In this document: piece after piece, positions 6,989 through 33,093 of the stretch
Numbering within the stretch: position 1 is the first letter of the stretch
How the letters are laid out: every line of letters begins with the position of its first letter
DNA from: Phycisphaerae bacterium
GTDB taxonomy: Bacteria; Planctomycetota; Phycisphaerae; UBA1845
NCBI GenBank assembly: GCA_029260075.1
Contig: JAJDDY010000033.1
Coordinates: 1-64,000 of the forward strand
DNA length: 64,000 nt
Direction: 5' to 3'
Notes under the pieces: model-generated
The model's input: the letters and a program-made list of their open reading frames with translations, nothing else
Databases searched by the model: none
What the model was told of the DNA's origin: nothing
Program-made: the position numbers and the translations under genes

Positions 6989-7123
6989 GCAGGGTGTTGA
7001 ACAATGCAGGTATTCAATCGCGCACCGCGAACCCGCACGCGAAAACGGGACTTGCTCCGTCAAGAGGCGGAAATCGCTAATCGATCACCGGCTGGAAGCC
7101 GGTGCCACACTTTTCAACAGGCC
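6989..7123 (+). mobile_element. R1 element, full copy, MITE-like
   Basis: The ends are imperfect inverted repeats: GCAGGGTGTTGAA on the left and TTCAACAGGCCGC on the right. Inside, CAAGAGGCGGAAATCGCTAA (7060-7080 area) leads into the palindrome CACCGGCTGGAAGCCGGTG and then CCACAC (core 7083-7110). The same order of blocks recurs at 23560-23697 and, shortened, at 41075-41199, 48579-48655 and 56313-56386. No transposase gene is present, so this fits a non-autonomous miniature element. It ends about 20 bases before the chosen start of the next gene. Confidence 0.75.
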
Positions 7124-9101: not shown

Positions 9102-9422
9102 CGATGCGGGAGGGGATTTCCGCATGGGCATGCTGTGCCGTGAATATGCTGTGTCGTGAATCCTTTCTCGACACATAGATGGAGAAGCTGTGTCGTGAAT
9201 CCTTTCTCGACACATGGATGGAGGTGCGAGAAGGGATTCACGCACCAGCTGACGCACCAGCAGCAAACGATGCACGCACCAGCTGACGCACCAGCAGCAA
9301 GTGGTTCACGCACCGGCATTGCTTGGCCGGGCGAAGGATGCATAGCCGCGTATGCCCACACCCACGCCTCTTTTGAATCCGGTCTTCGATTTTGTTATAG
9401 TGAAACCGAAAGCGAAAGTGTC
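9102..9422. repeat. R2 hairpin cluster and tandem repeats
   Basis: Three R2 hairpins lie at 9150-9175, 9189-9214 and 9223-9246. Each has a 12-nt loop (TGAATCCTTTCT, or its complement AGAAGGGATTCA in the third) between short complementary arms: TGTGTCG/CGACACA twice and GGTGCG/CGCACC once. From 9240 to about 9310 follow near-direct repeats of CGCACCAGCTGACGCACCAG. No gene is seen. A promoter for 9423 should lie at 9311-9422 but was not identified. Confidence 0.75.
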
Positions 9423-10464
9423 ATGCATCGATGGGTTGTCATCACGATCCTGCTTGGTCTGGTCGTCGCAACGGCGTACGGCGACGAAACCCTGCACCGC
9501 TATGAGGGCGATGTCCTTCCCGACGATCCCTCGGCCGGTTGGATCGCCAACAACCCCTGCGATTCACCCTGCACGGAGGGCGTTGCGAACGGGCGATTCT
9601 TCTTTTTCTGGGCCGTGGCGGGCGATTCGGCCAGCTATCGGTTCGACATATCGCGCGACCCCGGTGAACCGGCTCCGCCACTAATCTGGGTCGAATGGCG
9701 CTTTCGCTCCAACCACCCCGCAGGCCCCAACGCGTTCATCTGTGACGCCAGCATCCAAGTTGTTGACGCAAGCGTTGATCAATTGGTGGACATCTACGGT
9801 GACGCGGTCTTCGCGAGCAACGGAATCATTCGCGATCTGGAACTCAATGGGTTCCATACCTATCGCATCGAGAGCCTGCCGAACCTGCAGATCCGCATCT
9901 CGGTGGATGGGCTGATCTTCGCCGACGGTCTTGGAGGGGGGGGGTGGGAATCCCGCCTACGGATTGTTCGGCAGAGGCGGCTGCATCGGCGATCAGATTC
10001 CCAACCAGAGACACGAATGGGATTTCGTGCGTTACGGCACGGTGGCGACCGGCGAAACGATCGTAACCACCGACCCGCCCGTGGGATTCGTCAATCCCGC
10101 TGACTACCCCGGCATCGACCGCTTCACGGTAACGTTCGACGCAGACAATTACGTCTACATCGACGAGATCATCGTCGATACCGACGGCGCCACACCACCC
10201 GTCGTCATCAAGACCCGCCGCCTCGACAACGGCGAGCCCGACACCGTCGAGATCGTCCTCGACCGACCAATGCCCATCGGCAAGACAACCACGTTTACTT
10301 TCAACGACGGCACAACCGAGAACGTGGTCGTCTACACCCTCCGGTCCGGACCTGTCCCCACAGTCTCCCACTGGGGTCTGGTCGTCCTGAGCCTCCTGCT
10401 ACTAACCGCCGCAAGCGTCATCCTGCGTAGATTCCAGGTAGTGAGAAGGCAAGCTGCGCCGTGA
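9423..10464 (+). CDS. IPTL-CTERM surface protein, frameshifted at a G9 tract
   Basis: The first frame starts at ATG 9423 with a signal peptide (MHRWVVITILLGLVVATAYG). It holds a beta-rich secreted domain up to FADGLGGGG, then runs on in a foreign-looking Arg-rich frame to about 10103. The natural continuation (NPAYGLFGRGGCIGDQIPNQ) is in the next frame, from about 9946 to 10464. The switch point is nine consecutive G at 9936-9944; eight G would give one continuous protein of 346 residues. The C-terminus, VPTVSHWGLVVL followed by a hydrophobic helix and Arg-rich tail, is a typical IPTL-CTERM sorting signal, thought to be processed by exosortase-like enzymes. Alternatives are a sequencing error, phase variation at the G tract, or true decay. 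Ligand and function are unknown. Confidence 0.75.
9936..9944 (+). repeat. G9 homopolymer at the frameshift point
   Basis: Nine G in a row, preceded by GGA and followed by TGGG. This is exactly where the reading frame of the IPTL-CTERM protein changes. Confidence 0.9.
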
Positions 10465-10476
10465 ACCATTTCAAGC

Positions 10477-10603
10477 TGTGCCGTGAATCCTTTCTCGGCA
10501 CATGGATGGAGGTGCGAGAAAGGATTCACGCACCAGCATATTCACGCACCAGCATATTCACACACCAGCGTATTCACACACCAGCATATTCACACACCAG
10601 CAT
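10477..10603. repeat. Two R2 hairpins plus a 16-bp tandem repeat
   Basis: Hairpin 10477-10502 has arms TGTGCCG/CGGCACA, and hairpin 10511-10534 has arms GGTGCG/CGCACC with the loop in the opposite orientation. They are separated by TGGATGGA, the same arrangement as at 9189-9246. From 10524 to 10603, ATTCACGCACCAGCAT is repeated five times head to tail; units 3 to 5 carry CACACACC and unit 3 also ends GCGT. The array starts inside the second hairpin, so it seems to have grown from its right arm. Confidence 0.85.
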
Positions 10604-31252: not shown

Positions 31253-31278
31253 GTTAGTGTTTGGAAGAGGCGTTCGGT

Positions 31279-33093
31279 ATGGCCGGCATGGGATCGATGC
31301 ATCAGCAAGGGCGACGCCATTGGCTTTGCATTGCGTACGCCTTTCCGCCGATCAATCGCAGCGGGACACATCGCACGCTCGCGTTCGTCGAGCATATGGA
31401 TCGATTTGGTTGGGACGCCACGGTGCTGACGGCTACGCCGCGCGGTGAACTGCTTGATGCGGAACTGCTTCAGCGCGTGCCACCGTCGACCGATGTGATT
31501 CGAACGCCTTGGACTAATTACATTGAGCGAATTAAGGAATTGATATCGGGTTTTGCTCTCCGCGGGGGCGGTGGTGGTGCCGAGAAAGGATTCGCGGCAC
31601 AGCGGGTGACTGAGGATAAGGAGACGTTGTTGATGGGATCACCGGCTGGAAGCCGGTGCCACACAGGAATGGGATCACCGGCTGGAGGGCGGTGCCACAC
31701 GGGAGAGGGATCAACGGCTGGAGGGCGGTGCCACACAGGAGGGGGATCAACGGCTGGAGGTCGGTACTACACAGCAGCAAAATCTCAGTGTGGAAGTCGT
31801 TGCCACATCGGAGGGGGATCGCAGGGCGGAGGCTTGTCTCACACGATTCGCAGCGGCGTTAGAGAATGGGGCTCGCGATTGTTGATGACGCCGGATTCGC
31901 GTATTGGCTGGATCATTCCAGCGGTTCGCGCCGGGCTCGAAGCGATCCGTCGTCGCCGGCCGGACGTAATCTACACGTCGTCGCCATACGCGAGCGCGCA
32001 TCTGATCGGGCTGATTCTCAGTCGGCGGATGCGCATACCGTGGGTGGCTGACTTTCGCGATCCGTGGCGCGGCAACCCGTTTCACTCGACCACAAGCCCA
32101 TCGCTCGATCGCTGGGACGCTTGGCTGGAACGTCAGGTTGTTCGTCGAGCCGATCAACTGATTTGCGTCACACCTACCATGACCGAGCAATTGGTTCGGC
32201 GCTATCCGTTCGTTACGTCGAAGTGTTCGACGATTCTCAACGGATTCGACATCAAGCGGCTCACCCACATAGAGCCGCGTCGGGATGCGCCGAAGGATCA
32301 CTTCGTGCTGACGCACGCCGGTCAGTTCTACGGATCACGCGCCCCCGGTGTTTGGTTTGACGCCATCCGCCAGCTTATTGATCGGCGTGAAGACCTTGCG
32401 GGGCGGATTTGTCTGCAACTTATCGGAGCGGAATCTTTCGGCGGGCGGAGTCTGGCGTCGCTCGCAAAACGCGCCGGCGTGGCGCGGTGTGTGCGCGTCA
32501 TGGGGACACTCGATCATCGTTCGACGCTCGACTGTCTTGCGGGTAGCGATGCCTTGGTTCTGGCGGGAACGTCGGGGGTTGGTAGCGACTTGCAAGTCCC
32601 GAACAAAGTGTTCGAGTATTTGGCGATGCGGAAACCGATTGTGGCCACGTGTTCACCGCGCAATCCTGTTGTGGGGATACTTCAGCAGGCCAAGGCACAC
32701 GCCGTGGTGTTCAGCCCGTCGGATGTGTCCGCGCTGGCGAACGCGATCCATGCGCTTGCGACAGGTGAGCATCAGGCTGGCGTCGATGCGTGGTCCGGCG
32801 TCGACTTGTTCGATCGTGCAGAACGTGCGGCCGAGTTGGCGGAAGTATTCGAACGAGCCGCGAGGTCTGGAAGGACGGAAGCGCGAGATCGAAACTCAGC
32901 GATCCGAGACGGAAAGTCGAAAGCGAACGGTCGAGCGCCGATCGTCGCAAGAGGAAGAGAAGACGTCGGAAACTCAACGTCGACGGATCAAGGTCCAGAT
33001 CCGGAAGTCAACGGTTTCCCATTGAGAGTCGCGCCGCGAGTGGCGTCGCAAGTCAATGAGCAGCCTTCGATGAGCACCGTCGACGCTTCGTAA
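31279..33093 (+). CDS. GT4-like glycosyltransferase carrying two inserted repeats
   Basis: 604 residues from ATG 31279, with GGAAGAGG upstream. The GT-B body is clear: WLCIAYAFPPINRSGTHRTL, SRIGWIIPAVRAGLEAIRRR, RIPWVADFRDPWRGNPF, HAGQFYGSRAPGVWFDAI and VPNKVFEYLAMRKPIVATCS. Residues about 98-190 are foreign to the family. They consist of one R2 hairpin read as AEKGFAAQ, then six 12-residue repeats of the type GSPAGSRCHTG, encoded by amplified R1. The insert lies in a loop between the first Rossmann strands and SRIGW, so the enzyme could still fold. A polar tail of about 75 residues (from about 530) without family support precedes the stop. The 3' end overlaps the next gene on the opposite strand by 41 bases. 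Confidence 0.85.
   Translation: MAGMGSMHQQGRRHWLCIAYAFPPINRSGTHRTLAFVEHMDRFGWDATVLTATPRGELLDAELLQRVPPSTDVIRTPWTNYIERIKELISGFALRGGGGGAEKGFAAQRVTEDKETLLMGSPAGSRCHTGMGSPAGGRCHTGEGSTAGGRCHTGGGSTAGGRYYTAAKSQCGSRCHIGGGSQGGGLSHTIRSGVREWGSRLLMTPDSRIGWIIPAVRAGLEAIRRRRPDVIYTSSPYASAHLIGLILSRRMRIPWVADFRDPWRGNPFHSTTSPSLDRWDAWLERQVVRRADQLICVTPTMTEQLVRRYPFVTSKCSTILNGFDIKRLTHIEPRRDAPKDHFVLTHAGQFYGSRAPGVWFDAIRQLIDRREDLAGRICLQLIGAESFGGRSLASLAKRAGVARCVRVMGTLDHRSTLDCLAGSDALVLAGTSGVGSDLQVPNKVFEYLAMRKPIVATCSPRNPVVGILQQAKAHAVVFSPSDVSALANAIHALATGEHQAGVDAWSGVDLFDRAERAAELAEVFERAARSGRTEARDRNSAIRDGKSKANGRAPIVARGREDVGNSTSTDQGPDPEVNGFPLRVAPRVASQVNEQPSMSTVDAS
31577..31600. repeat. R2 hairpin inside a glycosyltransferase gene
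   Basis: GTGCCG and CGGCAC enclose the loop AGAAAGGATTCG. It is read in frame as part of the insert. It is the only R2 copy found inside a functional-looking coding region. Confidence 0.85.
31633..31848 (+). repeat. Six 36-bp tandem units derived from R1, in frame
   Basis: Units start at 31633, 31669, 31705, 31741, 31777 and 31813, each exactly 36 bases (12 codons). The first is a perfect R1 palindrome. The palindrome decays step by step: GGAGGGCGG in units 2 and 3, GGAGGTCGG in unit 4, and strongly changed units 5 and 6. Peptides run from MGSPAGSRCHTG to GGSQGGGLSHTI, all without a stop. Confidence 0.95.

Follow-up and report, generated by a model that had tools for sequence, protein, structure and literature searches.

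A glycosyltransferase gene of a Phycisphaerae bacterium contains, at 31633-31848 of the window (the whole stretch of 64,000 nucleotides that was analysed), six head-to-tail 36-bp units that are read in the frame of the protein. It is very probable that REP sequences of two families, R1 and R2, inserted into a linker of this glycosyltransferase (GT), that R1 was amplified there to six units, and that the protein tolerated the result. On this reading the gene offers a view of a non-coding mobile hairpin turning into protein sequence, with intermediates of its decay visible in one gene.

Structure of the array

The array, delimited with TRF and a repeat finder, is 216 bases long and has zero indels (Table 1). 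The palindrome is perfect in unit 1, CACCGGC-TGGAA-GCCGGTG, with CCAC after it. Mismatches to unit 1 rise from 0 to 15 along the array, and the hairpin pairs retained in the 19-nt core, where nine are possible, number 8, 6, 5, 4, 3 and 4 in units 1 to 6; only units 1 (z -3.75) and 2 (z -2.15) fold above shuffled sequences. An earlier note on this DNA had described an in-frame, palindrome-derived array of six 36-bp units in a glycosyltransferase, and the repeat finder, the ORF and the Pfam matches downstream agree with it; its further statement, that the first unit copies a dispersed palindrome without error and that later units lose it step by step, is borne out by the pair counts and fold scores.

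The array is open in all three forward frames. The GT ORF crosses it without stop or frameshift, and the array encodes residues 125-196 (72 aa), with in-frame ATG codons opening units 1 and 2. R2, a strong hairpin (z -4.41 against shuffles), is also read in frame upstream of the array, as the earlier note held, but its end lies at 31602 rather than 31600, and 30 bases, not 33, separate it from the array.

Table 1. Features of the glycosyltransferase gene and dispersed R1 copies, in window coordinates
Feature	Position	Strand	Evidence
Glycosyltransferase ORF, 610 aa from TTG; alternative ATG 31279 / 31288; GT-B, GT4/GT1 type	31261..33093	+	ORF list, Pfam, orthologues in 16 other genera, AF2, Foldseek (MshA 3c4q)
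Conserved N-terminal part of GT-B N-domain, residues 17-101, 69% identity to relative G031	31309..31563	+	Orthologue alignment; pLDDT about 90
R2 palindrome, second REP family (likely), residues 106-114 in frame	31577..31602	+	Fold score, 193 core copies, R2 around free-standing RAYT C86:223198
R1 unit 1, perfect palindrome, MGSPAGSRCHTG	31633..31668	+	Repeat finder, copy count, unit comparison, fold score
R1 unit 2, MGSPAGGRCHTG, 3 differences from unit 1	31669..31704	+	Unit comparison
R1 unit 3, EGSTAGGRCHTG, 5 differences from unit 1	31705..31740	+	Unit comparison
R1 unit 4, GGSTAGGRYYTA, 8 differences from unit 1	31741..31776	+	Unit comparison
R1 unit 5, AKSQCGSRCHIG, 13 differences from unit 1	31777..31812	+	Unit comparison
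R1 unit 6, GGSQGGGLSHTI, 15 differences from unit 1	31813..31848	+	Unit comparison
Rest of GT (REWGSRLL..TPDSR..GW onward), conserved with orthologues	31849..32920	+	Orthologue alignments, AF2 model
Dispersed R1 copy	7086..7108	+	Palindrome scan
Other dispersed R1 copies	12898, 18505, 23658, 30153-, 41175, 48581-, 56345		Palindrome scan

Selection on the encoded peptide

The array might instead be an adaptive protein repeat, a flexible or metal-binding spacer maintained by selection on the peptide, and its six in-frame units without indels, together with a Cys-His pair that recurs in units 1, 2, 3 and 5, would suit such a role. We consider this improbable. Differences between adjacent units fall evenly over the codon positions (14, 17 and 16), with no third-position bias, and random-mutation simulations leave the array free of stops by chance in 22-29% of cases; neither measure gives a sign of protein-level selection on the GT repeats. 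R1 is stop-free in five of its six frames and is therefore a forgiving insert.

An argument for frame selection from the stop-free length was dropped, the simulation being not significant and all three forward frames being open. The period of 36 was likewise rejected as proof of frame selection, given a 36-bp array at C51 and a 30-bp array in genome G028, both outside any evident gene. The former (L085:3735-3867) is R1-like and degenerate, more so than the GT array, and lies beyond the end of a gene named FHA-like by eye, in a stretch that is apparently non-coding. It serves as a natural control, indicating that R1-like arrays arise without coding, and in its light the GT array reads more readily as the outcome of a DNA-level process, tolerated by the protein, than as a protein repeat under selection.

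Metal binding by the added Cys and His, which the earlier note had suggested, is unsupported. The Cys-His pairs are what the REP tail GTGCCACAC encodes when read in the GT frame, and they decay in the later units, Cys being lost in units 4 and 6 and His in unit 4. Neither a conserved ligand spacing nor a structured site was found, the region being predicted disordered, and the segment is present in no orthologue. The 72 encoded residues most likely form a flexible insert that the protein tolerates and that has no selected function.

The host glycosyltransferase

Pfam matches to GT4 and GT1 domains lie downstream of the array. Sixteen orthologues, drawn from 16 other genera within the same family, can be aligned to either side of the array but not across it, in keeping with the earlier observation that the GT body continues normally after the insert. 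None of them has the repeat segment. The segment had been proposed to be residues 98-190; its absence from the orthologues stands, and the stretch without counterpart is corrected to residues about 100-193. The linker from the anchor to PDS measures 126 aa here against 50-67 aa in the 13 orthologues measured, and 54 aa once the 72-aa array is subtracted.

The AlphaFold2 model has a confident GT-B fold, with a core pLDDT near 90 or above, and its best Foldseek match is MshA (3c4q). Residues 104-192, flanked by helices 87-101 and 193-207, have a pLDDT of about 30 and are predicted disordered. The linker thus appears to be naturally variable, and the insert to be placed where least harm would be expected. 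A scan of the genome contigs with the GT protein returned distant glycosyltransferases only. Two orthologues, L020 and L023, have other in-frame repeat-like peptides (PPPSPLPKGGPRG and PSPFQGEGWSEG, respectively) at sites other than that of the R1 array.

It is quite improbable that the gene is decaying, with the array as the sign of a pseudogene or as a break between two separate products. In favour of decay stand the in-frame ATG codons that open units 1 and 2 and a codon-based coding score that is low over the whole GT gene. The codon-only gene model was too weak, however, and missed the GT; the Markov gene model that replaced it calls the ORF. The array has the worst coding score within the gene, as expected of recently non-coding sequence. 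Decay is further opposed by the conservation of both parts of the protein in a single frame (69% identity to G031 in the N-part, 58% in the C-part), by intact GT motifs such as the VPNK..EYL stretch, and by the absence of stops and frameshifts. The gene is not an obvious pseudogene, a possibility that the earlier note had raised against its own reading.

R1 and R2 as dispersed palindromes

The genome that holds the window is a 4.92-Mb draft. It contains 308 copies of R1 at no more than one mismatch (169 + 139; reversed control 0) and 193 copies of the R2 core (control 0). It is barely credible that the array is an assembly artefact, or a tandem repeat that arose by chance and has no relation to mobile palindromes: simple slippage is able to produce 36-bp arrays, but unit 1 is an exact match to the 308-copy family, so that the copy counts refute chance, and misassembly of a single repeat would not give units that differ by as many as 15 bases.

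The location of R1 was surveyed in 590 kb of the genome, a sample selected in part around R1 copies and about 80% called coding by our own ORF calls, in which 101 of 116 copies fall outside the ORFs. Those remaining are mostly at ORF ends, where start codons are uncertain, and only the GT and purH have R1 well inside the gene. R1 is therefore an extragenic palindrome with rare coding exceptions. Its dispersed doublets are mostly irregular in spacing (32-46 bp), which makes the exact 36-bp amplification unusual. As the earlier note proposed, the segment in the GT does seem to be born from two non-coding repeats, both palindromes being dispersed and mainly non-coding and the segment being absent in the 16 orthologues.

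The reverse complement of R1 is GTGG-CACCGGC-TTCCA-GCCGGTG, with a GT(A/G)G head 5' of the palindrome, the layout of REPs (PMC2817692). The strict GTAG tag is absent from R1, and CGTC is absent next to its stem. R1 is a short palindrome with a hairpin that folds better than shuffles and more than 100 copies in the genome, it lies mainly outside genes in the partly R1-centred sample, and it flanks a transposase in inverted orientation at C88. By these sequence-level tests it is best read as the REP of a REP-associated tyrosine transposase (RAYT).

A free-standing RAYT (C86:223198; L100:7856-8750) has R2 copies to its left and right, and R2 is likely a second REP family with its own transposase. 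Since R2 flanks the free RAYT and R1 the RAYT in PurH described below, the GT linker would have received REPs of two different RAYT systems. Elsewhere in the window, short tandem repeat clusters with units of 16, 34 and 39 bp, at 9130-9314 and 10450-10603, overlap R2 at 9149, 9188, 10476 and 10511.

A RAYT inside PurH

R1 lies near only one of the six Y1-transposase domains in the genome. This RAYT is embedded on the same strand and in the same frame in purH. The gene, which codes for an enzyme of purine synthesis, forms a single ORF of 786 aa (C88:20858-23218; L089:1859-4219) and is the only purH found in the assembly. R1 surrounds it as inverted pairs, at C88 21711- and 21746- on one side and 22301+ and 22340+ on the other.

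The domain has the HUH motif (MPDHVHLLL), the catalytic Tyr (YIETNP) and the Y1 fold expected of a RAYT. Pfam Y1_Tnp scores 22.2 bits in the whole PurH protein (cut-off 23) and 25.7 bits in the genome search. Compared by sequence with solved structures, the RAYT segment gave no match; with Foldseek the best non-PurH transposase-type match was 4er8 (E 2.5e-5), a RAYT bound to a REP hairpin. The RAYT is modelled as a separate domain with a pLDDT of about 80, between two disordered linkers, in a model whose whole-chain pTM of 0.44 makes the domain arrangement unreliable.

RAYT modules in host genes of relatives

RAYTs are found in frame in the PurH ORFs of relatives from four families of the order, and among the matches listed no full-length PurH-RAYT comes from outside the order. 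They share one insertion loop, which joins the helix ending ...LCAELTR to the strand CVFIKHTNACG. The REPs that flank them are lineage-specific with stems still paired, and those of R1 type keep the GCCAC tail or a near match to it; the palindrome beside the RAYT of G054 is that genome's own dispersed REP (140 copies). In-frame tandem REP arrays stand beside many of these RAYTs, including DHRRDACATPGEEG repeats in G054 and AHRQDAGATSEET repeats in G007.

Families f8 and f5 have a different RAYT type at the same PurH site, with a YVCEQ motif. The identities of host PurH and RAYT are uncorrelated (r -0.10, Mantel p 0.63, some sequences being partial), and together with the different types at one site this points to repeated insertion. 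A single ancestral insertion in PurH is unsupported by the same partly incomplete comparison. Each of the seven family genomes whose PurH contains a RAYT has at least 30 R1-type palindromes, and most of those whose PurH lacks one have few or none; G021 and G030 are rich in such palindromes although their PurH has no RAYT, so the link is not exclusive.

PurH is not the only host. The single-copy alaS of the window's genome (1321 aa, C54:128151-132116, L105:652-4617) contains an in-frame Y1-transposase domain (RAYT) with three 33-bp PSRDRKEA repeats and one PLPYGRGSV repeat at its flanks, and a further repeat copy near the C-terminus. IleS of G048 and G038 (L155:2861-7801 and L157:978-5285) has an in-frame RAYT at a site common to both, following EGYRTVDDPSVFVKF, and that of G048 also has about 13 in-frame 14-aa REP repeats, GSIGVPPV... 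(GSIGVPPVSSAQSP). In-frame RAYT-REP modules occur in relatives also in RarA/MgsA, GcvP and several DNA methylase/MmeI-type genes (L158, L159, L156, L160, L161 and L162). Seen against these, the GT array is a small instance of a habit that runs through the clade.

It is about an even chance that, in this order, whole REP-RAYT-REP modules and the REP arrays derived from them behave in an intein-like manner without splicing: sitting in frame in disordered loops of essential (PurH, AlaS, IleS) and other proteins, they would be translated with their host and shielded from loss while seeding hundreds of REPs, a single one of which gave rise to the GT array. This gives a wider, testable idea, that transposases may persist in frame inside enzymes indispensable to the cell.

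Origin of the array

In the insertion model, one R1 and one R2 copy would have entered the variable, disordered linker of the GT-B enzyme between two helices of the N-domain, R1 probably moved by the RAYT embedded in PurH. The R1 copy would then have multiplied into six head-to-tail units, an expansion that is common among REPs of the clade, with replication slippage or recombination as the presumed source of tandem copies. With a 36-bp unit, and R1 stop-free in five of six frames, the reading frame would be kept through amplification and the gene would stay open at each step. Later units would have drifted and lost the hairpin, while the GT was presumably translated through the array.

Comparison with known systems

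REPs and REPtrons are known as GTGG-head palindromes in hundreds of copies, mainly intergenic, inverted around an HUH/Y1 RAYT, and occurring in clusters and doublets (Nunvar 2010, PMC2817692; Di Nocera 2013, PMC3733652). R1 is like them in head, copy number, location and inverted flanking of a RAYT, and it too forms clusters and doublets. It differs in that the RAYT of REPtrons is a free gene, whereas the R1-linked RAYT lies in frame inside purH, and in that R1 forms a six-unit coding array.

Rickettsia palindromic elements are mobile palindromes found as in-frame inserts in many unrelated genes, as PMC10969869 reports from Ogata 2000 and 2002; CGTC-tagged repeats, which include some of these elements, have no known transposase (PMC3733652). 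Both they and R1 are mobile palindromes tolerated as in-frame inserts, and the earlier note's phrase 'similar in spirit' is a fair likeness. R1, however, is nearly always outside genes and flanks a RAYT. It is not a Rickettsia palindromic element: among the 116 sampled copies only those in the GT and purH lie well inside a gene, so that it does not recur in coding genes, and it is without the CGTC tag of the RPE-4/RPE-6 type.

REPs and clusters of REPs within genes have been described before, in Opitutus terrae, Thauera and R. conorii, with in-frame clusters coding for 43-82 aa (PMC3733652). The GT array is like these in having in-frame REPs inside an ORF, and unlike them in its unit-by-unit palindrome decay, its exact 36-bp period, the adjacent REP of a second family and its place in a glycosyltransferase linker. 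Beyond such clusters, whole RAYT modules embedded in host or essential genes were not found in the open-access literature searched, subscription papers lying outside that search.

The PurH inserts of f8 and f5 and the AlaS insert resemble class 3 TnpA_Y1 proteins (PMC6006769), with NHVH or similar and then Y followed by Q, a resemblance of motif only. Proteins of unexpected length were excluded from that survey, being taken for gene fusions or annotation errors (PMC6006769). Unlike those, the long RAYT-fusion ORFs described here recur at one site in several genera, and long RAYT-containing ORFs of the kind excluded earlier may be real.
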